Of a stretch of DNA of 64,000 bases, positions 4,301 to 52,829 are shown one piece after another. The position numbers and the translations under genes were made by a program. Positions within the stretch are counted from its first letter, which is position 1. The number at the start of each line of letters is the position of its first letter. Origin of the DNA: Kordia sp. (GTDB taxonomy: Bacteria > Bacteroidota > Bacteroidia > Flavobacteriales > Flavobacteriaceae); NCBI GenBank assembly GCA_002733415.1, contig NVVR01000013.1:1-64000 (forward strand). Direction: 5' to 3'. Under the pieces are notes generated by a model that saw only the letters and a list, made by a program, of their open reading frames with translations, had not been told where the DNA came from and did no database searches.

Positions 4301-6620
4301 TATAAAGGATGATATTGAAAATTTAAAAGAAATCGGGAATTTATTAGAGGTAACAATAAAAAATCATTCTAACGAAGAAATTAATGAATCGTTTAGAATA
4401 GATAGTAAAGTTAAACTAACATTTAATTATTGGTTGTCTCACAAGCCTGGAAGTGCAATACATGGTCATTATCATAAAAAGTATGATGGAGAATTTAAGG
4501 TAAAATATATTGAAGGGACAAAAATAATTTTAGAGAAATTAATAAATACTCCTAATTATTTCCCTGAATCTGAAATTGATGGTATATCTCAAGAAATTGT
4601 GGATCAACCATTGTATGATTATTATCACGATAATTGGCCTCCAATAGACGGGTTAATGTCATATCAAGAGTATACAAGCTATTTGTCTGCTCCCGGAGAA
4701 ATGAAAAGGTGGATTAAAAACATTACTCTTTTTAAAAATGAAATTATTTATACTAGAAATGATTCTAATGGAAAAAAGGGGGGTGGTTTAAGAGTAAAAT
4801 CATTGCAAGTAGAGGATAATAATAATACTGTAACAACAGAATATTTTTACACTAACCCCAATACTAATAATATTTCAGGAATAACATCTTATGCTCCATC
4901 TGGAGAGCCAAAAGGAGTTCCGTATATTTCAGAAATACCTTCACCTTCGGTTATGTATGGATATGTTGGTATGAAAACCAAAGACGATTCGAATGCGTAT
5001 ATGGGCAAAACCGTTTATCATTTTGAAGTTTTAGAGCCATTTAAAAATAGTTCAGAATATTTATTTAGTATGGGGGATATTTTTAAGGTAAAAGAAATGC
5101 AAAATGAAGGGTTTTTAAACAATGAAATTAAAGCTAATAAATATACGATATATAGTAAACTGTCTAATATTGGAAGATTAAATTGGGTAAAAACATTTAA
5201 TGTGGAAAATCATTTATTAAGCCAAAAGACTAGTAATTACAAAGAATATTTGGATGGTCAAGGAGAAATAGGTGTTACTCAAGAATCTTATAAAAGTATT
5301 AAAAGAGTTAGAAAAAACGGAAACCAAACTTATTACATTAATTCATCTAGTAAAGTGATGTACCCAAGTGTATTAAAAAGCACTTTAATGAGTGCTGGTG
5401 GACAAACATCTAAGACTAGTTATGATAAGTATGATTTTTTAACAGGTCAAGTTTTAGAGACCAGTACAATTAGTAGTGATGGGACTAAATTTAAAACTAA
5501 AGTAGTTCCTGCTTATACTATTACTGAATATTCTGGTGTAACTGGCGGCTATGGTATGGGACCAAAAGTAGATAATGTAACCAACAGTAACATGTTAAGT
5601 CAGGCGGCAGCAAGTTATAGTTATTTGTATGACACTGCTTCAAGTTCTTGGAAAGAAACAGGGGTTGGAATAAGTACTTGGAATAATGCCTGGAGTTATA
5701 GGGATAAGCAAAGTGTTATAACGACACCTACTGTTGCTAAGGAAAAAATTTGGAGAAAACATAAATCTTATGTTTGGAAGGGCGAAATTGATTCAAATGG
5801 AGTGCTTCAAGGTTTCACTAACGATTTTAATTGGGGTGTTGGAGCTGCAGGATTAACTCAGTCATCAGGTTGGCAAAATATTTTAGAAACGACACTTTAT
5901 GATCATTATTCTGTGCCTTTAGAAGTAAGGGATATTAATAATAATTACAGTTCAACTAAAATGGATGTTAATGATGAACGTATTATTGCGGTGTCAAATG
6001 CTAAGTATTCAGAAATGTATTATGCTGATGCCGAGCAGGGAATTGAAGGGCAGTCAATTATTCAGAGAGAGGTAAGAGGACATTCTGTTTCAGAAACTAA
6101 GGCACATACCGGAACTAGATCAGTTAAGGCAACGACTGCGATTAAAGGGTTTGAGGTTACGGGTACATGTGATAGTTTTGGAGTTGATTTTAAGTTAAAT
6201 GATACTTATAAAATATCGGTATGGGTTCATAAAGACAATTATACAAATGCTCGTTTGGTATTTAATGGAGTTTCTAAACAATTTAATGGAGAAATTGTTC
6301 CTGCAGGTGATTGGATATTGATGAATCATTATGAAAAATTTGTTGATCCTAGTTATGTTATTTATACAAGTTCTGCAAATGGTGATGTATATTATGATGA
6401 TTTTAGGTTACATCCAATGGAATCTAGTATGTCAAGTTATGTGTATAATAATTGGGGAGAACTATGGTACATATTAGGGGCAAACAATTTGGCAAGCCGT
6501 TTTGAATATGATGATGAAGGAAGATTAATTAAAACGTATACAGAAGTGATAGACAATGCAACTGTTACAGGTGGTTTTAAATTGTTAAGTGAAAATAATT
6601 ATAATTTTAAATTAAACTAA
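1302..6620 (+). CDS. giant secreted RHS-type protein, cage N-terminal half
   Basis: A 1772-residue protein with an N-terminal signal peptide (residues 1-31, ending QLYANN). The segment after it (about 45-110) has the SpvB/TcB-like opening of Bacteroidota RHS proteins: a VNLLTGDFSYVLPM block and GGIPLNLDATWVGLGWNLN. Residues about 140-285 are strikingly Gly-rich with short GVGxG and GSxSG repeats. The middle has large beta-rich segments and an Asp-rich loop DSNADGKLDEGDYG (about 605). The C-terminus ends in YD-type repeats (FEYDDEGRLIKTY) and carries no RHS core or tip. The next gene, 7 bases on, supplies YD repeats, the core and a tip, so the two probably make one split RHS shell, as TcB and TcC do in Tc toxins. 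No T9SS tail is present. Substrate and target are unknown. Confidence 0.8.
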   Translation: MKKTSFFHRTIAIFLTLNFLTTIIPVNQLYANNNGPNSPEAASFEPVDATDMVNLLTGDFSYVLPMLSVPSPEGGYPISLSYHGGIPLNLDATWVGLGWNLNPGAINRTVSGFPDDWGETKVHEFFYDEGWTEEYYNVGVGGNIYGVDVGIGASWGSNRSLGGSVSLGFAGYNITAGRGNSVSIGYGNGIMSANIGTNGVGVGLGVGKGAGKIGVGLNYSWNGNLSGSISGSLSGTIGGKGVFSGTKVSSSIGVSFNTKGLSGVTIAGTNVNLGGGNGTGGNYDVHESGFHFNAYFGVVWASFGYTKYKYSIHKYDNLNVTGGVYPYHSSYTKKRNTSHLLEEKNLMDVKSIVAHSSLDLTYNLIDADYSLDKNNIVLPNYDNYIVNAQGLSGIIKPSTYEELLLSDRGRGEQNEDNLYSAFVNKPLSYSDYSSDLGGDTHFYFENSHNSFLRVNKGNIAPPLWTNVTSASDYSAFLFGTGDTNIDYSLTHTPLGEKLMKGNKKREGNYIETYTNKQIREDNILGFIEASGIDRQETETFLDRGIGAYKITTIDGKTYHYSLPVYNYELFFKSFGNKNNENESFFEVQKEKPYATHWLLTAVTGPDYIDSNADGKLDEGDYGYWVELDYGKWSDGYGWRGPKEGFDTFKNKDGKETYSYYWGRKQIYYLDAIKTRTHTALFVKNLRDDDLSSGLNIYNQKWNSGNFNENYYSKRTSNSIPKIIGHPNDKFYTSSGDEHTIIEVDNSQNTPHYVDYVGATSYIKSLYLDSPINKSLKLEKIILLKNKDAGDFKSNGELINTLKGYYSSNFCYYNLGHVGPKNLNEPNNLSVDGYPIQPLYENVPSSIKSFDINQHKNVLDIKDIENLNLEQKAQQLISFTYDYSLAKNSSNSEANGKGRLTLKEVNYKGKQGHDIVPPYKFSYNAASTSYNKEDKGVWGYHKTIPEVWSLNEITTPTGGKIKINYESDSYFAEAAYNDPKIGFSRKYDGPIESIPPSPQYFIKDDIENLKEIGNLLEVTIKNHSNEEINESFRIDSKVKLTFNYWLSHKPGSAIHGHYHKKYDGEFKVKYIEGTKIILEKLINTPNYFPESEIDGISQEIVDQPLYDYYHDNWPPIDGLMSYQEYTSYLSAPGEMKRWIKNITLFKNEIIYTRNDSNGKKGGGLRVKSLQVEDNNNTVTTEYFYTNPNTNNISGITSYAPSGEPKGVPYISEIPSPSVMYGYVGMKTKDDSNAYMGKTVYHFEVLEPFKNSSEYLFSMGDIFKVKEMQNEGFLNNEIKANKYTIYSKLSNIGRLNWVKTFNVENHLLSQKTSNYKEYLDGQGEIGVTQESYKSIKRVRKNGNQTYYINSSSKVMYPSVLKSTLMSAGGQTSKTSYDKYDFLTGQVLETSTISSDGTKFKTKVVPAYTITEYSGVTGGYGMGPKVDNVTNSNMLSQAAASYSYLYDTASSSWKETGVGISTWNNAWSYRDKQSVITTPTVAKEKIWRKHKSYVWKGEIDSNGVLQGFTNDFNWGVGAAGLTQSSGWQNILETTLYDHYSVPLEVRDINNNYSSTKMDVNDERIIAVSNAKYSEMYYADAEQGIEGQSIIQREVRGHSVSETKAHTGTRSVKATTAIKGFEVTGTCDSFGVDFKLNDTYKISVWVHKDNYTNARLVFNGVSKQFNGEIVPAGDWILMNHYEKFVDPSYVIYTSSANGDVYYDDFRLHPMESSMSSYVYNNWGELWYILGANNLASRFEYDDEGRLIKTYTEVIDNATVTGGFKLLSENNYNFKLN

Positions 6621-6627
6621 TACAGAA

Positions 6628-9600
6628 ATGAAAAGGATTTTTAAAATTATCGTATTAGTACTGGGTTTTACATGTTTAAATAATGTATTGGCTCAAGAGT
6701 TGACTTTAATGAATAATTTAGGGTTTACTGTAAGCGGGAATCAGTTAAAAACTAGTGGAGGAGGTTCACTTTTTTTAAAAAGTAAAACTAGTCGTCGTCC
6801 TTCTATGCCAACAGTTCAAGCACATATGTTGTCATTAGATGTACTCGAGAGTAGTGCTTCAGGCGGTTATATAGAACTTTCCAATTTTGTGAAGTATGAT
6901 ACTAGTGTACTTATTCCTACAGGAGGCGTAGCTCCAGTTATACCTATGTCAGATGCTGTTTTTAATGTTAAGTTAAGTATTACCGAAATTGATACATATA
7001 GTGCAACTGAAGTTATAGTAAACGGGTACAGCTTAGATTTTGGAAAAAGTCAATTTGTATTACCTGGTACTACAGGAACCTATGTAAAAGCAATTAATAG
7101 AGGTGGTACGATATTAAATACGATATTGCCAACAGTATTTTCTGGATCGGATTCTTTTAGGGTTGAACGTATAGGAAATCAAATCAACTTTAAATACAAT
7201 ACTACTGTTGTGGCTACAACAACAATAGATCCTATTAAAAATTATCGTGTTGCTATTAGCACAAATACAGCAGGATTCCAGTTTAATTATACGTATTCAG
7301 ATTTTGAAATTTCATCATCTAGCTATTCATGTTTACCAGTGACAGATGACAAAAATTGGAATTCAAACTGTGTTTATGATATTGAGGGAAATTTAATAGG
7401 TTCAAGTGTAGATTATTATAATGAACTTGGGAAACCAACGCAAAGCCAGAGTTTGGACTTGAAAACTGGAAAAGTTTGGGCGTCTGAAATACAGTATGAT
7501 GTAGCAGGAAGACCTGCATTTCAAACATTTAATGCGCTAACAAACAACAATTTTGACTATCCATACATCAATGGATTAGTAAGAAAGTCAAATGGAGGGT
7601 ATTACACTCAGCAAGAATGGGAGGTTAATGAATACCCAACAACTATCGGGAGTTTAGAAGGAAGTTTAGGTTGGTATTATAGTGACCTAAATTCCAATGA
7701 ACCTTACCAAGATATAACAGAGTATCCTTTTTTAAAAAAAGTGTACGATGAGTTAAATCCGGGTAAAGTATTAAAAGTGTATGGAGGTAAAAAAGTACGT
7801 TTTACTGACCCCGTTACAGGGCAATCAATAATCACATGGAAAAATGGGTATGCGCATAGCATGCCAGCAGCACAGGAATTGTATTATGCATTTGGAAAAG
7901 ACCATTTTCAAGAGTCTGTTTCTAGTGACATGGTAGATGTTCAAGATTATAATAATGAAAGTACTGGAGAGTATATTTCAGCTTATGTAAGAGAAATTGG
8001 TATTAATCCATGCCTTGAAAGTACTACTTCCATACGAGTAAGATTAAAGGCTACTTTTTTGCCATTAATAAACGAAATTTACTTATTTGAGGATGATAGG
8101 TTTTATAAATTTGTCACAAGTCCTGCGTGGGGAGATGACCCTAATGCTGTTGGGTTTCCATCAATTAAAACAGGGAAATTCCTTTCATGTGGTAATATTT
8201 TAGTTTGGCAGCAAGGTAGTAGTAATGGGAAAATAGTAACCCATAAAGCTATTAAATCAGTTAGGATTGATGTTCAGGATAATGAAGTAGTTTCATTTTC
8301 TGATTTAGAGGGAAAACTGTTGGCTACAGCTAGATCTGGAGGAGCAGATCAGTATGAAGTTGTATCCTTAATAGGGAAGCAAGGTTATATTGACATTCAT
8401 ATTCCATTGGGTTGTGAAAACACATTAAGTTTTATTGGTGGTTCAAGTAATTACAAAGTGTTTGACTTGAGAGAAGGTGTTGAAATTATGGACTTTACGA
8501 CAATAAAAGCAGGTTTTTTTAGAGTTGAAGCTATAAATCAGGATTTATTAAATAGTACAAATAATATCACATACATTGACGAGGCTTCTGGGGCTATTAA
8601 CCCCATGTTTTCTAGTAATTGGGGAGTGCGTTACAAAGTAAATTACTACGATTACGCGTTAAACTATTACAATAAATCAGGGAGTTTAACTAAAACGGTA
8701 CAGCCACTAGGTTTTGATAATCATAATTTTGATTTAACGGTTGCAGTACCTAATCACACCATGCAATCTACTTATGAACAGAATTCTCTTGGGCAGGTGT
8801 TAAAAACGATTAGTCCAGACGAGGGTGAAGCTGAATTTAAATATAGAAAAGACGGTCAAATTCGTTTTTCTCAAAATTCAAAGCAAGTAGCGGTAGGAGA
8901 ATTTTCGTATACCAATTATGATAATAAGGCCAGACCAATAGAAAGTGGAGTGTATCATGGGAATGCCTCTTTTAATGAAGTTAGCAGAATAAACTATACC
9001 TTAGTACATGATGAAGGGGTTGTTAGAAATGAAAATAATATTACTAAAAACATAGCTAGTGGATGGGGTAATGCAGGTTTTTCTTCTCAAGAAAGTGTTT
9101 CGGGAGATTGTAAAGTGAGTTTCAAAATGGGTAATGGTTATTTAATGGTAGGACTTTCTGAGGCTTCAGATGCTGTATCGACAACTGATGATAATTATAC
9201 AAATATTAAATATGCTATTTATGCAGATGGAGGAAACTTTGATGTTTATGAATATGGATTTCACTCAGGAAATAATTTAACAACGTACTTAGTAACTGAT
9301 GTATTGAGTATTGAAAGAGTAGGAAGTACTATTTATTATAAAAAAAATGATGAAGTATTTTTCACTAGAACTAATGCTTCAACTGCTCCTTTAGTAATTG
9401 ATGCTTCTATTTACAGTCAAAATGCAGTTATTCAAAATTTAGAATTCTTTTCTATTATTGATATTACTGCAATAGTAAATACAGATACTACTATATTAGA
9501 CCCTCTTTTTTGTAAAGAACAAACATTTACGAAGTATGATGTGCCTGATTCAAACTTAAGTACTTTGTTAGCTGCCAACGGATTATCGAGTTATTATGGA

Positions 9601-12324
9601 GTACAGTCTTTTGTGGCGGGAAATGTTTCTAAAACAGAGACTAAAACGCCTGAAACGACTCAAACATGGTATAGTTATGATATTTATGGTAGGGTTACAT
9701 GGGTAATTCAGTTTATAAATGAATTGGGTTTAAAAACTATTGATTATGAATATGATGATGTTACAGGAGCGGTAACTAATGTATTTTATCAGAAGCACAA
9801 CCCTAGTGATCGATTTACACATAGGTACAGCTATAATCATGTTGGTGAAATGATAAAAGTAGAAACCTCTACCGATAATACAAACTTTACAGAGCAAGCT
9901 GCCTACACCTATTATGAAAAAGGCGCTTTAAAACGTGTGGAATTAGCAGAAGGGATACAAGGGATTGATTATGTATATAATTTAGATGGTTCTTTAAAAA
10001 GTATAAACCATCCAAGTCTAGATCCTGCAAAGGATCCTGGACATGATGCTAATGATGCTTTTGGTATAACCTTAGATTATCATTTGGACGATTATTCTCG
10101 TAGCAATACTAATATAGCTACCTATCCGTTTGGAGAAAATAGATTGGATGGGAATATTAAAGCGAGCAGATGGGCTACTAAAGGATTGACTGCACCTGGA
10201 ACAAGTAATGCTTATGTATATCAGTATGACAAAAATAAATGGTTGCAACAAGCTACTTTTGGAAATGTTAGTTCAGGGACGAACATAGTAACCACAACTG
10301 ACTATGGTGTTAGTGGAATAACCTATGACGCAAATGGGAATATAAAAACACTAAATAGGACAAAAAATACTGTTTCGAATTCGAACGAAATGGACCAGTT
10401 TACATACAATTATAATTCGGAAACAAATCAATTGAATCATGTAGCTGATGCTGTTTCAACACCAAATTTGTCATCAGATTTAGAAGGACAAACAGCAAAT
10501 AATTATGTGTATAATAGCATAGGGCAATTGGTTAGAAATACAGAGGAGGATGTTGATTATGAGTATAACACTGCTGGTTTGGTAACTAAAGTGGCAGTTT
10601 TGGATAATTTAGGTTATGGTCAAATAGTGGAGTTTACCTATAATGACAAAGGACAACGAGTTAAAAAATTAAGTTCAGAAATAGGGGCTAATGGAACAAA
10701 TAAGAACACTACTTTTTATGTAAGGGATGTGGCAGGTAGCACTATGGCGGTGTATACCATGGCTTGTTTAAACTGTAGAGTGGCAAGTACTGCAAGGAGA
10801 ACCAGTAAAGCGGCTGCAGCTGTTGTCCCCACTGTGCAGGAATACCCTATTTACGGAGCTTCAAGGATTGGGGTGTACCATAAACAAGCGGCTAAGGAAT
10901 CCTACCAGTTAACCGATCATTTAGGAAATGTAAGAGCGGTAATAAGTAAAAACTCTGCGGCATTGGTAATTCCTCCAGTATACGAAAATGATTTTACGAA
11001 TAATTATACCCCTTTTGTTGCTATAGGAGCAGATACAAATTTAAGTATTGCAGGAGAACGTTTAAAGGTGGAAATTATAGGTGCTGATAAAGGAACACAA
11101 GCAAGTTTTGCTTTAACCGCAAACAAAACGTATAAATTGCAATATGATTTAGAAAGAAGCAGTGATTTAAATGGCGATTTTGTATGTCAGGTATCAGACG
11201 GATCAACTATTGTGGGGTCGCAACCAGAAGCCTATTCGGGAAGTAAGTCATTTTTTGTTACACCTACAATGACTGGGAATTATACCTTTATGTTTACCTT
11301 AAGCAATACTACAGTTCCTTCACAATATTTTACATTGGATAACGTTAGCATTACTGATGTAACTACGGATAATGCAACAGTAAGTAATTATACGGATTAT
11401 TATCCCTTTGGTATGCCAATGCCTATCCGTAGATTTACTGATGGTACATACCGTTACGAGTTTCAAGGACAAGAAAAAGATGGTGAAACTGGTAAAGAAG
11501 CGTTTCAATTAAGACTTTGGGATGGGCGTATTGGTAGATGGTTGACTACTGACCCATATGGACAATATAGTTCACCGTATGTAGGTATGGGAAATAATCC
11601 TATTAATGGTATTGACCCAGATGGCGGGTTTACTTGGTTTGGTGCACAATGGCATGCACTTTGGAATGGAGGAGATATATACAAGAAGGAACATTCTGAG
11701 ACTGGCAGGAATTACTATACAGTAGGAAGTACAGCTAAAGATGGTACTGTTATGATGGTTGTTGGAAGAAATGGAGCTGACAGAGCAAAATATGGACCTC
11801 GTTATCCAGCTGGTGCTGGTGGTGGCTTATCTCTTTTAAATTTAAGAACTCCTCCTGACCCAAAAGGTATTCCAAATGTTTATTTTGATGCTAATGCTGC
11901 AATCATTCATGGACAAGTTGGTGCCGATGTCAGATTTTTAGGTTGGAAAGCTGGAGCAACATTAGAATATGCAAAATCATCAAATTATCAATTAGGTTTT
12001 GATTTTGATACATCAAGAGGTAGAGGTGATATGTTCAAGAATACTTCTTTTATCGGAACTAGGTTTGGTGATGATTATGGAGGTGGTCTATCTAAACATG
12101 CTGGAGTATCTGCTAAATTCGACATAAGAACCAATAGGTTAAAAGAGGTTACTGTTAGTGCTCTTGTATCAGAAATAACAAACGAATATCATATAAGAGG
12201 CGTTCATGCAGGTAAGCTTTCTAGAACAAAAATTGGGTTTAACATTGGTGCAGGAGCGGCAGCTTTCTTTGGTGCTGAAGCAGGAATAAAATTTGGAGTA
12301 ATACTTCCAGCCCCAACAAAATAA
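6628..12324 (+). CDS. RHS repeat protein with core domain and variable C-terminal tip
   Basis: A 1898-residue protein with signal peptide (residues 1-22, ending NVLAQ). Lectin or laminin-G-like beta segments appear near residues 40-240 and again near 800-930. YD repeats (for example YEYDDVTGAVTN and ITYDANGNIKT) occupy most of residues 950-1400. A LTDHLGNVRAVI motif lies near 1430. The conserved RHS core (YYPFGMPMP, FQGQEKDGETG, LRLWDGRIGRWLTTDPYG) ends in GIDPDGG at residues 1661-1667. After it comes a 231-residue tip unlike the rest, ending in a Gly/Ala-rich segment; such tips are normally the toxin. I do not recognise its fold or catalytic residues. A small RDD gene follows after 7 bases and is the natural immunity candidate. 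Family role: interbacterial toxin delivery. Confidence 0.85.
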   Translation: MKRIFKIIVLVLGFTCLNNVLAQELTLMNNLGFTVSGNQLKTSGGGSLFLKSKTSRRPSMPTVQAHMLSLDVLESSASGGYIELSNFVKYDTSVLIPTGGVAPVIPMSDAVFNVKLSITEIDTYSATEVIVNGYSLDFGKSQFVLPGTTGTYVKAINRGGTILNTILPTVFSGSDSFRVERIGNQINFKYNTTVVATTTIDPIKNYRVAISTNTAGFQFNYTYSDFEISSSSYSCLPVTDDKNWNSNCVYDIEGNLIGSSVDYYNELGKPTQSQSLDLKTGKVWASEIQYDVAGRPAFQTFNALTNNNFDYPYINGLVRKSNGGYYTQQEWEVNEYPTTIGSLEGSLGWYYSDLNSNEPYQDITEYPFLKKVYDELNPGKVLKVYGGKKVRFTDPVTGQSIITWKNGYAHSMPAAQELYYAFGKDHFQESVSSDMVDVQDYNNESTGEYISAYVREIGINPCLESTTSIRVRLKATFLPLINEIYLFEDDRFYKFVTSPAWGDDPNAVGFPSIKTGKFLSCGNILVWQQGSSNGKIVTHKAIKSVRIDVQDNEVVSFSDLEGKLLATARSGGADQYEVVSLIGKQGYIDIHIPLGCENTLSFIGGSSNYKVFDLREGVEIMDFTTIKAGFFRVEAINQDLLNSTNNITYIDEASGAINPMFSSNWGVRYKVNYYDYALNYYNKSGSLTKTVQPLGFDNHNFDLTVAVPNHTMQSTYEQNSLGQVLKTISPDEGEAEFKYRKDGQIRFSQNSKQVAVGEFSYTNYDNKARPIESGVYHGNASFNEVSRINYTLVHDEGVVRNENNITKNIASGWGNAGFSSQESVSGDCKVSFKMGNGYLMVGLSEASDAVSTTDDNYTNIKYAIYADGGNFDVYEYGFHSGNNLTTYLVTDVLSIERVGSTIYYKKNDEVFFTRTNASTAPLVIDASIYSQNAVIQNLEFFSIIDITAIVNTDTTILDPLFCKEQTFTKYDVPDSNLSTLLAANGLSSYYGVQSFVAGNVSKTETKTPETTQTWYSYDIYGRVTWVIQFINELGLKTIDYEYDDVTGAVTNVFYQKHNPSDRFTHRYSYNHVGEMIKVETSTDNTNFTEQAAYTYYEKGALKRVELAEGIQGIDYVYNLDGSLKSINHPSLDPAKDPGHDANDAFGITLDYHLDDYSRSNTNIATYPFGENRLDGNIKASRWATKGLTAPGTSNAYVYQYDKNKWLQQATFGNVSSGTNIVTTTDYGVSGITYDANGNIKTLNRTKNTVSNSNEMDQFTYNYNSETNQLNHVADAVSTPNLSSDLEGQTANNYVYNSIGQLVRNTEEDVDYEYNTAGLVTKVAVLDNLGYGQIVEFTYNDKGQRVKKLSSEIGANGTNKNTTFYVRDVAGSTMAVYTMACLNCRVASTARRTSKAAAAVVPTVQEYPIYGASRIGVYHKQAAKESYQLTDHLGNVRAVISKNSAALVIPPVYENDFTNNYTPFVAIGADTNLSIAGERLKVEIIGADKGTQASFALTANKTYKLQYDLERSSDLNGDFVCQVSDGSTIVGSQPEAYSGSKSFFVTPTMTGNYTFMFTLSNTTVPSQYFTLDNVSITDVTTDNATVSNYTDYYPFGMPMPIRRFTDGTYRYEFQGQEKDGETGKEAFQLRLWDGRIGRWLTTDPYGQYSSPYVGMGNNPINGIDPDGGFTWFGAQWHALWNGGDIYKKEHSETGRNYYTVGSTAKDGTVMMVVGRNGADRAKYGPRYPAGAGGGLSLLNLRTPPDPKGIPNVYFDANAAIIHGQVGADVRFLGWKAGATLEYAKSSNYQLGFDFDTSRGRGDMFKNTSFIGTRFGDDYGGGLSKHAGVSAKFDIRTNRLKEVTVSALVSEITNEYHIRGVHAGKLSRTKIGFNIGAGAAAFFGAEAGIKFGVILPAPTK

Positions 12325-44184: not shown

Positions 44185-46083
44185 ATGAATATCAAATACC
44201 GTTTACTTCTTATCCTGCTAATCATTAATGTAAATGCATTAGTTAGTCAAAATAATTTTGATATAATTTTCCCACAAAATAACAGAGAGCAACTATGCCA
44301 ACGTTGTACTCAAACCTTTACTAAAAAATCTAAAGAAGTAAAATTTTCAATTGTAAAAGATAAATCAAATAACCTGTTTTTTGAAGTTAATGATAAAAAA
44401 TGGTTTACTCAATTGTTTAAAAATTCAGGTGACGGTATTGCTATTGATATCGTTTCTAAAAAAAGATATGATTGTACTATTGTAGAACTAGAAGATAAAC
44501 AACTTAAAGGACACTTGTTAAAACCTGTTTACGCAAGTGCCTTAAAAAGAGGGCTTCGTCCATCTGGCACAAATAAATTTAAGGTTAGGGTAGGTGTTTT
44601 ACCTAAATCTTTTGCAAATGACAATGAGTTAGAATACAATATTTTGTTTTTAAATGATAAGAACTTATGTAGGTATCAAACGCTATTTAATTTAGATTCT
44701 TATGCTTGGGATTTATTGGATATGGGAATGTATCTTGAATCACTTACTTATAAAACAAAATTAGGAGCTTCAAAAGGAGGAGAGGGATATACTTTAAAGC
44801 ATAAAACATTAAAATTTATAATTCCTTTTGAAAAGAATAAATCGGAATATTCCCAAGAAGATATTAAACCGCTGTATGACTCTTTACAATTAACGGATTT
44901 TACAATTAAAAAAATAAATATTAAAGCATATGCCTCCGTTGAAGGGAATTTAAAAAGAAATATTGAATTGCAAGAGCAAAGAGCCAATAGTATAGCAAAA
45001 GCGCTTCAGAGCTTTCAAAAATCGACAATTATTAATGAGGTTTCATCATCGGAAAATTGGGTGGAATTTTTAAATGATGTGTCTGATACTAAGTATGCAA
45101 GCTTCAAGAAGCTTAGTAAATCAGAAATTAAAAGGAAACTAGTTGGTGAAGTATCAAAGGAATTAGAAATCTATTTAAAAAAACATAGAAAAGCTGTTGT
45201 TTCACTTGAGTTAGAGAAGAAGGATAAATTTAAAGATAAATCAGCTAATGAGTTATTAAGTTTATTTAAAGTTTCTATTGCTAATGATAATGTTGATGAA
45301 GTAACTGAAATTCAAAATTCTCTTTTTGAGAAATTAAAGAATCAAGAAATTTCACCTGATTTTCTTGATAAAATGAATTTACCACAACAAGTAAAATACG
45401 CTAGGAACTTAAATAACAATTCGGTGTATAAGTACTTTATGGAAGAGCGAAACTTATTAATTTCCATGAATGAATTAGAAAGGCTAGAAAAATTAACTCC
45501 TAAGGATGGTAAAGTAAAGTATAATTTATCGGTATTGAAATTTACGCTTTGGAGGGCTAATTATCAGCCAGTAGATGCTATTGCTTTTAAGAAACAAATA
45601 CTGGGGTTAAAACAGTTTGGTATTTCTCAAACCTTAATTCAGCGAATGCTTATAAATTATCACATCGTTAAAAGTGAAAAATATATGAGAAAAAGAGATT
45701 ATACAAATAAAGATAAGGCTGTTGCATATATTTTAAAAAACTATAAAAAAATTACACTATCTGATTTCGATTATTTAAGTCTATCACAGTATTTAACGTA
45801 TTATTCTAATTATAAGAATGCTATTGAATTATTAGAAAAAAAAGTGCGAAGTATTTCTGTTGATGAAGATTTATTGTTCTACTATTTGAATATGACCTTA
45901 ATAGATAATGAGCTTACTAAAAAGGCAGACTATAGAACTATAATGTTAAATGCTATTAACATGAATAAAGAGCGGTATTGCAAGCTATTTAATTCAAAAG
46001 ACGATGGGGGAGTTACGTTTCAATTATTAGATAATGAATACTTAAGGAAAACCTATTGCGAAAATTGTAATGCGGAAGAATAA
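44185..46083 (+). CDS. secreted protein with OmpA-like domain
   Basis: A 632-residue protein with signal peptide (residues 1-20, ending ALVSQ). Residues 20-200 have a Cys pair (CQRC) and beta-rich segments. Residues about 215-300 resemble an OmpA-like peptidoglycan-binding domain: FIIPFEKNKSEYSQEDIKPL, INIKAYASVEG and QEQRANSIAKAL, the order of the family. The C-terminal half is helical and may hold TPR-like repeats (NYKNAIELLEKKV). It ends in a Cys pair (CENC). Likely periplasmic, cell-wall associated. It is 38 bases after the SDR gene. Function unknown. Confidence 0.65.
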   Translation: MNIKYRLLLILLIINVNALVSQNNFDIIFPQNNREQLCQRCTQTFTKKSKEVKFSIVKDKSNNLFFEVNDKKWFTQLFKNSGDGIAIDIVSKKRYDCTIVELEDKQLKGHLLKPVYASALKRGLRPSGTNKFKVRVGVLPKSFANDNELEYNILFLNDKNLCRYQTLFNLDSYAWDLLDMGMYLESLTYKTKLGASKGGEGYTLKHKTLKFIIPFEKNKSEYSQEDIKPLYDSLQLTDFTIKKINIKAYASVEGNLKRNIELQEQRANSIAKALQSFQKSTIINEVSSSENWVEFLNDVSDTKYASFKKLSKSEIKRKLVGEVSKELEIYLKKHRKAVVSLELEKKDKFKDKSANELLSLFKVSIANDNVDEVTEIQNSLFEKLKNQEISPDFLDKMNLPQQVKYARNLNNNSVYKYFMEERNLLISMNELERLEKLTPKDGKVKYNLSVLKFTLWRANYQPVDAIAFKKQILGLKQFGISQTLIQRMLINYHIVKSEKYMRKRDYTNKDKAVAYILKNYKKITLSDFDYLSLSQYLTYYSNYKNAIELLEKKVRSISVDEDLLFYYLNMTLIDNELTKKADYRTIMLNAINMNKERYCKLFNSKDDGGVTFQLLDNEYLRKTYCENCNAEE

Positions 46084-46404
46084 TAGTAATATCAAGCATT
46101 GCCAGATGCTCGTGTGTGTGTGGGGAACTTTTTTTAATCGCTTAATTATTTTTTAAAAGGAAAGTTATATATCAAGCGAATATGTAAAAAAAAGTAAAGT
46201 GAAATTGGAGTATGATAATAGGTTACCTATTTATGTAACGTCAAAAAACAACTAAACGTCATTACGAGACTTTTGATAAAAAGGCGTGGTAATCTCATCT
46301 CAAATAGATACTTTTAGAACTGATAAAATATACTGAATAGAATATAGTATAAATTGCACTTCGTTATAACATGCTACGAGTTAAAATAATTGATTATAAG
46401 ATTT
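46084..46404. other. intergenic region with right copies of the direct repeats
   Basis: Right copy of direct repeat 1 at 46093-46146 (exonuclease gene end) and of direct repeat 2 at 46157-46199, here only about 10 bases apart, against 225 on the left side. No gene is seen in the rest (46200-46404). Confidence 0.7.
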
Positions 46405-49242
46405 ATGAAAAAAGTTTTGGGGTATTTGTTTTATATAATAGGGTTTTACTTTTTATATGTTATAGTTTTTTCGGGTTTTCCTTTAGTATCAGATAGTGCT
46501 AAATTTGAAGGATTAGCGACCACTGTAGGTGTCGTTATTGCCTTAATATTATTTGCAATCCCAGTTTTTTTTCTATTAAAGTTTGCAAATAGATGGACCA
46601 AATTAAAGCGTAGTTATTTCTGGGGAATATTAGCTTTAGTAAGCCTTTTTGGTTTTATATCGGAAGAAGAGGTACTGCCATTTAATCACGATAATGAATA
46701 TGTTATTTGGTCAGAAAAAAATGTTGATTGGTCAAACTTTACGGAGGTAGTCACTAAATCTGATGGCTTCTCAGCATCTATTTATTCAGAGATATTTTGC
46801 CCAAGAGAAATCACAAAAAAGAGTTCTGCTATATATGCGTATATGAGTCCTGAAATATCGGATAAATTAAATGATTCGCTATTAGATCCTCAGCTATTAA
46901 TACATGAACAATATCACTTTAATATTACAGAATATTATGCGCGTTTACTAAGGAAGGCAATTATTGAAATTGGTAGCGATGAAGTAACAATTGACGATGT
47001 ACAAAGTCTGTATGATAAGTATGAATCAAAGCGTGATAGTGTACAAATTGTATACGACAGTATTTCAGAGCATAATGTTAAAAATCACGAACAACGATAT
47101 TGGGAGTTGAAAATTGATGAATTATTAAGAGAAACAGCATACTATACATCACCCGATTTAAACCATTATTATGATTTTAATAAAAGTGATACTGATTTTT
47201 ATAGACAGATATTACAAACTTTTAACAGCAATATATTAACTTCTTATCCTATATATAAGGAAGAAATTAAATATGGTGAATCTTACGAAGTTATTAAATC
47301 ATGGAATACCACAATGATTAAATTTTATAAAGATGGAAAACTTAATAATGGTGGGATATTTAAAACAGCAATAACTAAAATAACTAAAAATTGGTTCGAT
47401 GATATTGAGATACATTATTATAATGCAAATGAAACTTATAATACAAAGCGAACTCATTGTGTTTATAAACGCTCGGTTGATGATGATATTCGGGTAAATA
47501 AATATTTTAATGAACAAGGAGAACGAGTAGCATATGAAAATGGAATTTATGAAACTCATTGGAGATTTATAAATGATACAATTGCTTACAGTAGTTATTA
47601 TAATAAGGAAGGATTAAATATAAAAAACAAGGATAAAGTATTTCATGTAAAAAAGTATTTTGACCAAAAAGAGAGAGTATTTAAATACGAATCCTACGAT
47701 AACCATAACAAACTAATGAATGATATAGATAATTTATCTATATACGAATTCAGGTACACAAATAATCATATGTATAAATCATATAAGAAGTTTGATAAGC
47801 ATGGTAAATATCCTATTAATTCAGATTCTTATAATTTAAAATATGTTTATGACGAAAGAGGATTGATGAAAAAAAGAATAAATTTAGATGAGCATAATTT
47901 TAAAATTAATGATAATGAAGGAGTTTGTATTCATGACTACTGTTATGATATATATGGTAATACGACACAATCCAAACGCTATAATAAAATGAATTCCCCC
48001 GTTTTAGGAGATGATGATTATTTTCAATGGGTAACTAAATATGATAGTATTGGGAGAGTAACATTTGATGCAAAGTATTATATGGAACATACATTGAGGT
48101 TTTATGATGATAATTGGGGGGCTTCGAAATTAGAATACCCTAATGATTCATTAATAATAAAATACAATGTAGATGCCTATAATAACCTGTTTAACGACGA
48201 CACTGATGTTGCTATAGTTAAAAAGTATAAAAATTCAAAAAAAGAAACGATTAAGGATGTATATTTTGATAAAAATGAATCTTATGCTAAAACAAAGAAT
48301 GGAGTTGTGCAATATCTTTATAAATATGATGATAATGGTAATCAGATTGAAGAAGTAGGTCTTGATTCTTTAGAGAATTTAAAAGCTTTTCAAGCAGATG
48401 TTGCTAAGATATGTTGGGAGTATGATGTAAATAATAATAAAATTAAAACATCCTATTATAATGAAGAGGATAAGTTAGCAAATGCAAACAAAAATGCTGC
48501 ATTCAATTTCTATTCCTATAATGGTAATAACGAGATAATAGAGCGAAGCTATTATAATAAAAAAATGGAGCCTTTAATGTATGAAGGAGCTTTTAAAACT
48601 AGGTATTTACTTAATAAAAAGGGGAATGATTCCTTGATGAAAAAATATGATATAAATAATGATTTGATAAAGGAAGTATGTGTTACTAAATACAAATATA
48701 ATGTATATGATAATGTTATTGTAGAATCATATTATAATGATGAAAATAGCAGAATTAATAATTCGGATGGTATAAGTGCTATTAAATACAATTATGATAA
48801 TAGGCAAAGAATTATTGGTCATGATTATTTTGATAGACATGATTCGATAGTAAATAATAAGCAAGGGTATTCTGCGTATAAGAATGTTTTTAATAAAAAC
48901 GGGGATGTTGTTTCTGAGTCATTTTTTAATAAAATTGGAACACCTGTTCTTGGGCCAAATGGTTATCATAAAAAAGAAGTGGAATGGAATGAGATGGATT
49001 TAGACGTTAAAACAACTTTATTTAATATAGATGATACATTAATAGAAGATGATGAAGGTATTGCTATATATGAATATTTTAGAGGCGCCTCAGGACTTAT
49101 TAAAACAGAACGATTTTATAATAAAAATCATGAGCTCACAGAGGGTAATTCCGGGGCAGCAGAAATATACTACCAACCCAATTTAAATGGTTTGTATTAC
49201 CTTGATAAAAGGCTAAATGCAAAAGGGGAAGTAATCAAATAA
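46405..49242 (+). CDS. membrane HExxH protein with long repeat domain
   Basis: About 945 residues from ATG 46405 (a TTG five codons earlier is in frame). Three N-terminal membrane segments (about 5-24, 38-62 and 74-88) come first. A domain with DPQLLIHEQYHFNITEYYAR follows near 165-185; HEQYH is an HExxH zinc motif like that of DUF922-type peptidases. From about 290 to the end there are some 15 repeats of 30-40 residues with YN/YD-type cores (for example YYNEEDKLANANKNAA, YKYDDNGNQIEEVG), each resembling the YD or WG-type repeats of surface proteins. The combination of a zinc-protease motif and a repeat superstructure is unusual. Function unknown. The FANRWTK segment recurs in fragments at 37805 and 58688. 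Confidence 0.75.
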   Translation: MKKVLGYLFYIIGFYFLYVIVFSGFPLVSDSAKFEGLATTVGVVIALILFAIPVFFLLKFANRWTKLKRSYFWGILALVSLFGFISEEEVLPFNHDNEYVIWSEKNVDWSNFTEVVTKSDGFSASIYSEIFCPREITKKSSAIYAYMSPEISDKLNDSLLDPQLLIHEQYHFNITEYYARLLRKAIIEIGSDEVTIDDVQSLYDKYESKRDSVQIVYDSISEHNVKNHEQRYWELKIDELLRETAYYTSPDLNHYYDFNKSDTDFYRQILQTFNSNILTSYPIYKEEIKYGESYEVIKSWNTTMIKFYKDGKLNNGGIFKTAITKITKNWFDDIEIHYYNANETYNTKRTHCVYKRSVDDDIRVNKYFNEQGERVAYENGIYETHWRFINDTIAYSSYYNKEGLNIKNKDKVFHVKKYFDQKERVFKYESYDNHNKLMNDIDNLSIYEFRYTNNHMYKSYKKFDKHGKYPINSDSYNLKYVYDERGLMKKRINLDEHNFKINDNEGVCIHDYCYDIYGNTTQSKRYNKMNSPVLGDDDYFQWVTKYDSIGRVTFDAKYYMEHTLRFYDDNWGASKLEYPNDSLIIKYNVDAYNNLFNDDTDVAIVKKYKNSKKETIKDVYFDKNESYAKTKNGVVQYLYKYDDNGNQIEEVGLDSLENLKAFQADVAKICWEYDVNNNKIKTSYYNEEDKLANANKNAAFNFYSYNGNNEIIERSYYNKKMEPLMYEGAFKTRYLLNKKGNDSLMKKYDINNDLIKEVCVTKYKYNVYDNVIVESYYNDENSRINNSDGISAIKYNYDNRQRIIGHDYFDRHDSIVNNKQGYSAYKNVFNKNGDVVSESFFNKIGTPVLGPNGYHKKEVEWNEMDLDVKTTLFNIDDTLIEDDEGIAIYEYFRGASGLIKTERFYNKNHELTEGNSGAAEIYYQPNLNGLYYLDKRLNAKGEVIK

Positions 49243-49361: not shown

Positions 49362-52300
49362 ATGAAAAATATTGTATTTCTCTTTTTGCTAACCTTAAGC
49401 TTGAATTCTATTGCTCAAGAAACACCTAAAGTAATCCTGAAAGATTCCAGTCAATTAAAACTATCAAGTTTAAAAGTAGATGTAAAAATCATAGGGAATT
49501 TTGCCACTACGACATACGACATGAAGTTTTATAATGAACTGGATAGCACTTTAGAAGGGGAGTTGGCTTTTCCTTTAGGGGAAGGACAGTCCGTTTCAAA
49601 TTTTGCGATGGATGTAAATGGAAAACTACGTGAAGCAGTAATTGTAGAAAAAGAATTAGCTCGTGTAGCTTTTGAAAATACAATTCGTCAAAAGATTGAC
49701 CCAGGTCTATTAGAAAAGACAGAGGGGAATAATTATAAAGCTAGAGTGTATCCTATCCTTCCTAAAAAGCATAAGCAAATAGTAATCACTTATGAGCAAG
49801 AATTACGAACCGTAAATGGTTTTATGATCTATGAATTGCCATTAAATATCTCTGAAAAACTAGCTGAATTTTCAATTAGCTTAAATGTTGAGGTAGGAGA
49901 TGTTATTCCTACGTTTAAAAATAATCCGTATAAAGAACTTTATTTTAATGAGAAGAAAGGTGGGTTTCATGCTGAAATAACCAAAAGTAATCATACCCCT
50001 CAAAAGGCTATTGTTTTAAAAATACCTAACAATTCTTTAAAAGAAAAAGTACTAAGCTATAATGATTATTTCTATGCGTATAAAGCACTAAAGCCAAATG
50101 ATCGACTAAAGTCAAAACCTAATAAAATAACATTATTTTGGGATGCGTCTTATTCTTTGAAAAATAGAAATGTTGCAGAAGAATTAAATTTATTAGATGC
50201 CTATTTCAAGTATTTACAGCATGTTGAAGTTGAATTCATTTCATTTAGCAACACTATTATAGCACATAAAAAAATTGAAATTGAAAATGGAAGTTGGGAT
50301 GAGTTAAAACAACTGATTAAAAATACCGTTTATGACGGGGGGACGAACTTTAATGCACTTTCAAAATTAAAATTAAAAACGGATGAAACACTTTTGTTTA
50401 CGGATGGCTTAGATAACTTAGGGAGTTTTTTGCCTAATAATAAAAAGGCGGTGTATGCAATAAACTCATTGGTTTCTGCCAATCATGAAGAACTGAATAA
50501 TATGACCACTAAATCTGGAGGGGCATATATAAACTTGGTAAGACTTGATAGTAAAGAAGCACTAAAGCAATTAAAAAATGAAACCTTTCAATTTTTAGGA
50601 ATATCAGATAACAATAGCGTTACTAATGTATATCCAAATAGAAATACTAATGTAACTACTGATTTTTCAATTGCAGGTAGGTTTTCTGAAAACACAACTA
50701 TCAAATTGCTTTTTGGGTATAGTGGTAAAGTCACTCAAAAGTTAACTGTTCCTATTCAAAGCGGAGTACAAAATAGTTTAGTCAAACGTTTATGGGCAAA
50801 ACAAAAACTAAGTGCTTTAAATTTCAATAAAGAAGAAAATAAAAAGGAAATTATTGACCTCGCAACTCAAAATCATTTGATAACTGATTATACTTCGATG
50901 CTAATTTTAGATAGGTTAGAAGATTATGTGCGTTACAGAATTGAACCACCGAAAGAATTAAAAAGTGAATATAAAGAACGTATTAAAAATCTAAAGGAAG
51001 ACGAAGCTAATAAGCAATTAGAAATTAAAGAAAGGAAAGAAGATCTAGTAGAAGATTATAAAGACATTATTAATTGGTATAATATGAAGTTTCCTAAAAA
51101 GGAGAAGAAAGTCGTAAAAAAAGAGGCGCCTGAAATTATCGATCCAGTTGTAAACACTCCAGTCCTTGACACTACTTCAATAGTAACACCTACTATTACA
51201 AATAATCAAGTAACCACACCCGAAGAAGAAACTGTTATAACAAATATAGATCCTAACAGTAAAACAATATCAGGGACACTTGTAGATGAAACAAATATGC
51301 CATTACCTGGAGGAACAGTAGTAATCAAAGGAACCACATCTGGCGCTAGTACAGATTTTGATGGGAAATATTCAATTAGTGCAAATTTAGGAGATGTGTT
51401 AACGTTTTCTTATGTGGGATACGCTAATCAAGAAATTGTTATTGGAATTGGAAACACAATTGATATTGCTTTGGAGCTGGATGATAGTCTTGAAGAAGTT
51501 GTAGTTACAGCATTTGGAATTAAAAGAGTGAATAAAGCATTAGGATATACTGTAACAACTGTTAGCTCAGATCAACTTGATGTAGTTAGATCCTTAGTAG
51601 GGAGAGCTGCAGGTGTACAGGTGACAAGTAGCTCAGGAGCAGTAGGAGCATCTTCATCCGTTACAATTCGTGGTGCTGCCTCAACTTCAAATAATAAACC
51701 ACTATATATTATTGATGGGATTATTTCTGAAAGCAACCCTTATGAAATATTATCAACAGATGCTATTGATTCGATGCATGTACTCAGCCCAGAAAATGGA
51801 ACTGCATTATATGGGAGTAGCGGAAGTAGTGGTGTGGTAATAGTTGTAACCAAAGAAGGGAAAGTAAAAAATGAGGAAGCAATTGAAGAGTTAAATCAAC
51901 AAATTACTGATAAAATTGAATTAAAAGCATGGAATCCTGATACACCTTATTTGAAGGTTTTAGAAAAAGAAAAATCAGTTGAAGCTGCTTATATAAAATA
52001 CCTAGAAATCAGAAGTGACTACGCAAATGTGCCTGCGTTCTATTTGGATGTAGCGGACTTTTTTGATAAAAGGAAATCTAGTAAGATTGCAATTAGAGTA
52101 TTGACAAACCTTATTGAAGTAGATTTAAATAATCATGAGTTAACGAAAGCATTAGGATATAAGTTGGAGTATTTTAAACAATATGAACTTGCTGTTATAG
52201 TATATGAAAAAGTGTTAGAATTACGTCCAGAAGAACCTCAGTCTTATAGAGATCTAGCATTAGCCTATGAAGCAGTAGGAGCGTACCAAAAAAGCTTTGA

Positions 52301-52829
52301 TTTATTATTTAAAATTTATAATGGAGAGTTACTTGAAAAAGATGTAAACGAATTGTTTTATGGTATTGAAGCGATTGCATTTGTGGAGTTATCAAGGCTT
52401 GTAAATAATCATGGTAAAAGACTAAAGTTAAATAAAAAGCAAAAGAACTTTTTTAAACCATTACCAGTAGATGTAAGAGTTGTTATTGATTGGAATCATA
52501 AAGAAACAGATATCGATTTATGGGTTATTGATCCTAGTGGAGAAAAATGTTTATACTCAAATTCAGAAACTAAAATTGGCGGAAGAATCTCTGAAGACTT
52601 TACAGATGGATATGGACCAGAAGAGTTTATGCTTAAAAAAGCTATAAAAGGAAAATATAAAGTATTAGCTGATTATTATGCAGACAGTGTTCAGAAAATA
52701 TCTGGACCAACAATTTTAAAAGTTTCCATGTATACTAATTATGGGAAAGCGAATGAAGTAAAGAAAACCATAACCGTAAGATTAGACAAAGAAGAAGATG
52801 ATATAGAAATTGGGAGTTTAATTTTTTAG
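49362..52829 (+). CDS. VIT/VWA protein fused to SusC-type plug, TPR and DUF2135
   Basis: An 1155-residue protein with signal peptide (ending NSIAQ, residue 18). Residues about 20-150 are a VIT domain (TTYDMKFYNELDSTLEGELAF split over two strands, then RVYPILPKKHKQIVITYEQE). A VWA-like region follows near 250-400 (ITLFWDASYSL, ETLLFTDGLDNLG). Residues 631-710 are a CarboxypepD_reg domain (SGTLVDETNMPLPGGTVVIK) and 712-835 a TonB-receptor plug as in SusC (VVVTAFGIKR, VTIRGAAS, PLYIIDGI, VVIVVTKEG), with no beta barrel after it. TPRs lie near 865-1010 and DUF2135 near 1036-1150 (VVIDWNHKETDIDLWVIDPSG). A plug without a barrel inside a VIT protein is odd and may act as a binding module. Confidence 0.82.
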   Translation: MKNIVFLFLLTLSLNSIAQETPKVILKDSSQLKLSSLKVDVKIIGNFATTTYDMKFYNELDSTLEGELAFPLGEGQSVSNFAMDVNGKLREAVIVEKELARVAFENTIRQKIDPGLLEKTEGNNYKARVYPILPKKHKQIVITYEQELRTVNGFMIYELPLNISEKLAEFSISLNVEVGDVIPTFKNNPYKELYFNEKKGGFHAEITKSNHTPQKAIVLKIPNNSLKEKVLSYNDYFYAYKALKPNDRLKSKPNKITLFWDASYSLKNRNVAEELNLLDAYFKYLQHVEVEFISFSNTIIAHKKIEIENGSWDELKQLIKNTVYDGGTNFNALSKLKLKTDETLLFTDGLDNLGSFLPNNKKAVYAINSLVSANHEELNNMTTKSGGAYINLVRLDSKEALKQLKNETFQFLGISDNNSVTNVYPNRNTNVTTDFSIAGRFSENTTIKLLFGYSGKVTQKLTVPIQSGVQNSLVKRLWAKQKLSALNFNKEENKKEIIDLATQNHLITDYTSMLILDRLEDYVRYRIEPPKELKSEYKERIKNLKEDEANKQLEIKERKEDLVEDYKDIINWYNMKFPKKEKKVVKKEAPEIIDPVVNTPVLDTTSIVTPTITNNQVTTPEEETVITNIDPNSKTISGTLVDETNMPLPGGTVVIKGTTSGASTDFDGKYSISANLGDVLTFSYVGYANQEIVIGIGNTIDIALELDDSLEEVVVTAFGIKRVNKALGYTVTTVSSDQLDVVRSLVGRAAGVQVTSSSGAVGASSSVTIRGAASTSNNKPLYIIDGIISESNPYEILSTDAIDSMHVLSPENGTALYGSSGSSGVVIVVTKEGKVKNEEAIEELNQQITDKIELKAWNPDTPYLKVLEKEKSVEAAYIKYLEIRSDYANVPAFYLDVADFFDKRKSSKIAIRVLTNLIEVDLNNHELTKALGYKLEYFKQYELAVIVYEKVLELRPEEPQSYRDLALAYEAVGAYQKSFDLLFKIYNGELLEKDVNELFYGIEAIAFVELSRLVNNHGKRLKLNKKQKNFFKPLPVDVRVVIDWNHKETDIDLWVIDPSGEKCLYSNSETKIGGRISEDFTDGYGPEEFMLKKAIKGKYKVLADYYADSVQKISGPTILKVSMYTNYGKANEVKKTITVRLDKEEDDIEIGSLIF

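Follow-up and report, generated by a model that had tools for sequence, protein, structure and literature searches.

A SusC transporter head without a barrel, set in the variable slot of a VIT/VWA protein family, points to a possible, so far undescribed TonB user

Outer-membrane transporters are known to carry the TonB box as their docking tag. In the SusC/RagA transporter Bt1763 this box reads DEVVVTG, and its deletion or mutation gives levan growth defects like those that follow the loss of SusD; the NTE domain in front of the box has no known role (PMC7782687). In the secretion receptor Oar the TonB box matters for protein secretion (PMC6434023), and von Willebrand-type (vWA) folds driven by Ton/Tol-type motors are proposed for a different, membrane-anchored family (PMC12204202). 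Here we describe a gene from a Kordia sp. contig (NVVR01000013.1), of which positions 1 to 64,000 of the forward strand were analysed and are called the window. The gene encodes a VIT/VWA protein of 1155 amino acids (aa) that carries the head of a SusC transporter between its two halves. Every part of the protein is known; the combination, and the pattern of what fills the same slot in its relatives, is new. In the openly licensed PMC literature that was searched, no listed title or abstract opening pointed to this architecture, no paper combined any two of DUF2135, VIT domain and TonB, and none paired the TonB box with von Willebrand.

The open reading frame (ORF) starts with ATG and has no internal stops. 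Its product runs from a signal peptide through a VIT domain, a VWA domain, a linker, a SusC NTE domain, a TonB box and a plug to TPR repeats and DUF2135 (Table 1). A sequence-only reading of the gene had described a VIT/VWA protein with a SusC-like plug and no barrel, with junctions at about residues 630 and 840; Pfam and NCBIfam scans bore out the description, and the junctions were correct. Pfam placed CarbopepD_reg_2 at residues 636-715 (E = 2.6e-16), DUF2135 scored over its cut-off (48.1 bits vs. 22), and TPR matches at about residues 940-978 fell below theirs. The insert is of SusC origin: the NCBIfam model OMP_RagA_SusC matched with 192 bits over the first 209 of its 981 profile positions, which is the head of SusC, TIGR04057 matched residues 802-831 below its own cut-off, and the sequence matches of the insert in the PDB include 5t3r, a SusC homologue, over residues 635-835 and 6sli, RagA, over 633-837. 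No barrel family was found by Pfam over the 1155 residues, and the NCBIfam SusC score of 192 compares with a cut-off of 368. The NTE domain, TonB box and plug of SusC/RagA proteins are thus all present, and the 22-strand outer-membrane barrel is missing. Pfam gave no VWA match in the window protein; the pieces of the MIDAS motif are there, as D261-x-S-x-S265 (DASYS), GGT326-328 and TDG347-349. An AlphaFold model from a 13-row alignment (mean pLDDT 62) had inter-alpha-inhibitor heavy chain 1 as its best PDB match (6fpy, E = 6.1e-18), and the modelled NTE domain fitted the solved SusC NTE 9hfj with a root-mean-square deviation of 0.9 and a TM of 0.92 on the target. The signal peptide, with no lipobox seen by eye, suggests a periplasmic location.

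Relatives were found at 17 loci of named genomes, 16 of which matched nearly the whole protein and one (L057) the insert only. By alignment, NTE domain, box and plug occur together in 14 of the 16 near-full-length loci (in L050 the ORF ends within the plug); L047 and L051 keep the NTE domain and the box and lack the plug. With the same insert at 14 of the 17 loci, the architecture exists in other genomes, and an assembly error at either junction is ruled out. The plug-bearing loci come from Maribacter, Aquimarina, Kordia, Aureibaculum, Aequorivita and other Flavobacteriaceae, and the insert is also present in genomes G018, G021, G006, G049 and G012. Two Aquimarina orthologues (L045 and L050) are each split into two ORFs. 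In three other genomes of the window's genus, two of them 80-82% complete, only SusC heads were matched; viral contigs contained no relative, and plasmids three weak ones. On the core tree the window gene lies within the main plug-bearing clade (support 100/99). Its own genome gave 23 Plug matches, and 22 of these ORFs were examined, L269 at a contig edge being left out. All 21 other plug ORFs had barrel support (17 by Pfam, 3 by NCBIfam, and L263 by full-length similarity to L258), and the window protein alone had none.

Alignment of the relatives showed a variable slot with conserved sequence on either side, the VIT/VWA half before it and the TPR-DUF2135 half after it. We searched with the C-terminal half through the order (196 genomes, 18 with a match at 1e-20), the phylum (296 genomes, 27), the family (396 genomes, 95 at 1e-40) and the class (395 genomes, 23). 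These sets overlap, and in the family and class searches only the best-scoring loci were taken; many family matches lay in shorter ORFs of non-VIT size. After removal of repeats, 97 candidates yielded 81 distinct slots, the other 16 being dropped for want of a recognisable end of the VWA half. The dropped rows were eight proteins of non-VIT architecture, three fragments (L226, L244 and part of L050) and five others: L217, which has an NTE domain but gave no match to Pfam Plug, L225 and L236, with no Pfam family in the slot, L194, with no TonB part by eye, and L245. The 81 slots are not a random sample: 25 came from whole-protein searches that included the plug (19 with a plug, 1 empty), and the 56 later ones, except L193, were found by the C-terminal half alone.

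TonB-related content recurs in these slots. Classified by SusC-head models and a box pattern (with the boxes of L188, L205 and L214 assigned by eye), the 81 slots, from across Bacteroidota, held a plug (36), NTE domain and box (6), the NTE domain only (3), a box only (9), a plug fragment (2), a TonB C-terminal domain, TonB_C (3), or nothing recognised by these models (22). The corresponding figures for the 56 later slots were plug 17, NTE 7, box 7, TonB_C 3, fragment 1 and none 21. A TonB-box pattern was present in 48 of the 81 slots, where shuffling predicts 0.17, and in 14 of the 45 slots that lack a full plug, where it predicts 0.06; the class "box" was defined with a similar pattern, the selection of the 81 slots was not. 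Pfam at a threshold of 0.01 found CarbopepD_reg_2 in 43 slots, CarboxypepD_reg in 41, Plug in 34 and TonB_C in 3. Eleven further families, with 1-13 members each and best E values from 1.6e-5 to 0.008, are mostly beta-sandwich models and were taken for NTE look-alikes. No transposase, integrase or phage family was among the 15 Pfam families found in the 81 slots. Within the class in which nothing was recognised, L191 has CarboxypepD_reg by Pfam, and L165 and L186 have sub-threshold Plug matches (0.0018 and 0.095). The TonB_C matches come from three genera: L164 (2.7e-5) is over the cut-off, L218 (2.6e-4) and L220 (0.0058) are under it, and their TonB_C stretches are plainly alike. On the core tree they belong to a starred five-row set together with one plug-bearing and one box-only relative. 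Over the whole core tree, slot type changed at least 20 times.

Two smaller observations concern individual slots. Four species of one genus, g61 (L171, L172, L173 and L175), have four different slot contents. The slots of L063 and L210 contain a box-like ELDEIVV after the plug, not before it, and this stretch is kept in a congener with an eroded plug.

There are signs of selection on the plug. The ratio of non-synonymous to synonymous change (dN/dS) was obtained in three comparisons that share sequences, among four Maribacter-type genes. It was 0.14, 0.18 and 0.19 for box plus plug and 0.09, 0.18 and 0.34 for the NTE domain, compared with 0.71, 0.56 and 0.42 for the linker before the NTE domain and 0.07-0.10 for VIT/VWA. 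The 36 plug-bearing members, including the window protein, keep most SusC signature residues, with E712 and V713 of the box each at 97%, and R770 and G818 of the plug at 94% and 100%. Where they are present, plug and NTE domain look constrained in most comparisons, thin as the data are.

There are also signs of recopying from resident SusC genes. Residues 632-688 of the window protein share 88% identity with L002, a SusC from the same genome, and 77-88% with five SusC genes of the genus; the identity is no more than 72% to 102 other SusC proteins and no more than 61% to 21 VIT relatives. No such excess was seen in the plug part (45% to own SusC vs. 49% and 48%). Among the SusC genes of this genus the tract is 74-95% alike and the plugs 27-62%, so the VIT gene appears to be drawn into a homogenisation of SusC gene starts, in which residues 632-688 would have been recopied; alternatively, the tract may be under strong constraint specific to the genus. 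At L064 it is the plug that resembles an own-genome SusC (L087), with 75% identity as against 47% to the best VIT row compared, a set that did not include its congener L221; the slots of L064 and L221 are 79% alike. A third kind of gene with this tract was seen at L004 (G000:C40:104474-107641), where an ORF at 1489-2163 (-) encodes 224 aa with an unrelated N-terminal part and ends in an NTE tract, NETNMPLPGATVLIKGTTNGTSTDFDG, that resembles those of the genus SusC genes and the window gene.

A clean replacement of the whole window plug by a resident SusC plug was considered as well. The whole insert first hinted at it, being 60% identical to the own SusC L002 and 36-48% to plug-bearing VIT relatives, with a quick tree pointing the same way. 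A single clade of 20 VIT plugs against 107 SusC plugs was rejected (p-AU = 0.0044). Trees with the window plug (p = 0.82) or the Kordia plug (p = 0.78) constrained to the 15-row main VIT group were not rejected. In both cases the constrained tree scored above the free one, which means that better trees had escaped the quick searches, and the rejection of the single clade is to be read with that caution. The outlier row L035 was excluded from the plug clade tests and from the first segment comparison. Whole-plug replacement was not supported, and descent with the orthologues was not rejected.

The TPR-DUF2135 half also occurs in proteins without VIT. All eight that were examined match NTE and plug models, and two have a VWA motif. 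In genomes G652 and G815 such a protein is encoded directly downstream of the VIT gene (L209 and L212). At L176 the gene for an NTE-plug-TPR-DUF2135 protein without VIT (3763-8317, -) adjoins one for a 904-aa MG2-domain protein; a link to alpha-2-macroglobulin was considered, and L176 is the one MG2 neighbour found.

We hypothesize that the product of the window gene is soluble and periplasmic, a VIT/VWA-TPR protein that docks at the interface of TonB and the TonB box, a reading we hold as plausible though still short of probable, and in which we infer both the binding of TonB and the cargo of the halves. The slot would join an inter-alpha-trypsin-like VIT/VWA half to the TPR-DUF2135 half and serve as a dock to the TonB system. 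The window protein would have a borrowed SusC head as its dock, consisting of the NTE domain, an exposed TonB box and the plug. As on a transporter, the box would be bound by TonB, with ExbBD as the driver, and the VIT/VWA-TPR protein could be pulled, recruited or regulated by TonB activity with no barrel needed. Relatives might do the same via a bare TonB box, or in reverse, with a TonB C-terminal domain binding the boxes of transporters. A wider version of this proposal, that a widespread Bacteroidota family of barrel-less, TonB-coupled periplasmic proteins has its slot repeatedly reloaded with any TonB-interface part that the genome supplies, be it a SusC head, a bare TonB box or a TonB C-terminal domain, and that proton-motive force thereby reaches a VIT/VWA-TPR machine which is not a transporter, is bolder and appears doubtful to us.

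Several results weigh against TonB docking. The chief doubt is the fast turnover of the slot, since a tolerant linker would show the same: in g61 the slots are 30-56% alike, compared with C-terminal halves that are 83-87% identical (four pairs compared). By the models used, 22 of the 81 slots have no TonB part, and 21 of the 56 slots outside the first-found set are empty; boxes in plug-less members may be relics. In the closest pair (L042/L055) the NTE domain and plug differ by 7 non-synonymous changes and 1 synonymous one, whereas VIT/VWA has 0 and 4, respectively. In L041/L058, a distant pair with synonymous sites near saturation, dN/dS is no higher for the linker (0.13) than for the plug (0.15). 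Some residues conserved in SusC are loosened in the plug-bearing members: Y670 is kept in 31% vs. 86%, G833 in 67% vs. 95%, and K809 in 81% vs. 100%, the window protein having S. Residues 709-778, where the TonB box and the plug's first half lie, have very low AlphaFold confidence, as do residues 577-631. A clear LDEVV box was found in only three of the eight non-VIT proteins, and the non-VIT proteins of L066 and L068 and one of L067 were reached via a query that contained the plug.

The main rival is passive capture, in which ectopic recombination pastes pieces of the numerous SusC heads into an insertion-tolerant linker, where they decay and the plug has no function. The rapid turnover between congeners, the 20 or more changes of slot type, the tracts shared with resident SusC genes, the excess of non-synonymous change in the closest pair, and the partial or scrambled plugs in L062, L063, L065, L166-L169 and L214 all fit such an origin. 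It is harder to reconcile with the low dN/dS of plug and NTE domain in the three other comparisons, or with the own genome, where the 22 plug ORFs examined included no second barrel-less plug. Further, TonB_C in three genera is not derivable from SusC heads, and the frequent slot contents include no unrelated gene family. We consider passive capture possible, yet on the whole unlikely.

The remaining rivals keep a function for the insert and place it elsewhere. The plug could act in trans or as a decoy, docking in or near outer-membrane barrels or the barrel assembly machinery (BAM) and tethering the VIT/VWA protein to transporters with no binding of TonB. Plugs that keep most SusC plug residues, R770 among them, are in line with this; nine slots with a box and no plug fold, and three with TonB_C, are not, and we regard it as improbable. 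The NTE domain could instead be the working part, as a spacer or an adhesin module, with box and plug as passengers. NTE domain and box without a plug in L047, L051 and L212 agree with this, as does the NTE-like domain without a transporter in PorE (PMC12204202). A box or plug without an NTE domain in L173, L210, L227, L166-L169, L183, L184 and L242 argues the other way. We hold this to be the least probable of the explanations.

The sequence-only reading had offered two interpretations, a plug exapted as a binding or regulatory module and the start of a SusC gene fused into a VIT gene. A recent accident is less likely than exaptation, because the head is SusC-derived, occurs in many genera and looks constrained in three comparisons of close relatives; this constraint was not seen in the closest pair, and a binding or regulatory role is conjectural. 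The second interpretation was right about the source of the head. It does not describe one simple fusion, since the slots of relatives differ, some holding bare TonB boxes or TonB C-terminal domains, and stretches look recopied. Taken together the two are partly supported and were drawn too narrowly.

Table 1. Features of the VIT/VWA gene in window coordinates.
Feature	Coordinates	Strand	Basis
Whole gene, VIT/VWA-[SusC head]-TPR-DUF2135 protein, 1155 aa	49362..52829	+	ORF, Pfam, NCBIfam
Signal peptide, residues 1-19, SPI-like, without lipobox Cys	49362..49418	+	Sequence, cut site by eye
VIT domain, residues 34-144	49461..49793	+	Pfam PF08487, E 1.9e-25
VWA domain, about residues 250-415, approximate limits	50109..50606	+	MIDAS motif pieces, fold match 6fpy
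Low-confidence linker, about residues 577-631, variable slot begins	51090..51254	+	AlphaFold pLDDT <50
CarbopepD_reg_2/NTE, first part, residues 632-688, tract common with resident SusC genes	51255..51425	+	Identity comparison
CarbopepD_reg_2/NTE, remainder, residues 689-709	51426..51488	+	Pfam 636-715; fold match 9hfj
TonB box LEEVVVTA, residues 710-717	51489..51512	+	Sequence pattern
Plug domain, residues 734-836	51561..51869	+	Pfam PF07715 734-825, E 8.8e-9; TIGR04056 up to 836
TPR repeats, about residues 890-985	52029..52316	+	Weak Pfam TPR matches; helix pairs in model
DUF2135, residues 1094-1141	52641..52784	+	Pfam PF09906, E 1.2e-12

No conserved genomic partner or operon was found across the family. 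In a few lineages the VIT gene stands in a men-type gene row, and six Maribacter-kind loci have upstream what we take to be a WYL-type regulator. At L186 (3678-5021, +) and at L178, L179, L182, L185, L187, L190 and L192 the VIT gene is preceded, at a distance of 13-76 bases, by a gene that belongs to one cluster. These eight loci are outside Flavobacteriaceae, and the upstream gene of L186, the one scanned, has a type IX secretion system (T9SS) sorting tail. Upstream of the window gene on the same strand are two uncharacterised ORFs: 44185-46083 encodes 632 aa with a sub-cut-off OmpA match (0.00054), and 46390-49242 encodes 950 aa that match DUF922 weakly (0.032). Neither of these neighbours, the only two scanned, is a SusD, and neither is in any of the 14 largest shared neighbour clusters listed. 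Elsewhere in the window, two very large ORFs, of 1772 and 1898 aa, stand side by side at 1302-12324.

The family hints at an undescribed user of TonB. If TonB docking is true, TonB would energise or sense something besides transporters in the Bacteroidota periplasm. The family would then provide a naturally occurring set of small modules that dock to TonB, and an example of recombination by which a transporter family reseeds a gene unrelated to it. Among known proteins, inter-alpha-trypsin inhibitor heavy chains and bacterial VIT/VWA proteins have the same VIT domain followed by a VWA domain with MIDAS, in keeping with the top fold match 6fpy; the window protein differs in adding a SusC head, TPR repeats and DUF2135 after the VWA domain. 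In the proteins annotated "VIT domain-containing protein" of Aureibacter tunicatorum and Deinococcus sp. QL22 both halves align, and the slot has no visible TonB part. The vWA force transducers and PorE resemble it in that a vWA fold or an NTE-like domain is proposed to be coupled to a Ton/Tol-type motor (PMC12204202). In the transducers there is an inner-membrane helix that often bears an SHLS motif, whereas the window protein has a signal peptide and no His in residues 1-30, and its link to the motor would be the TonB box. SusC/RagA transporters (TIGR04056; Bt1763, RagA) share the NTE domain, TonB box and plug, and they end in a barrel, whereas in the window protein the head stands mid-protein between VIT/VWA and TPR, with no barrel. 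Within that head, LEEVVVTA occupies the same place as DEVVVTG in Bt1763 (PMC7782687).

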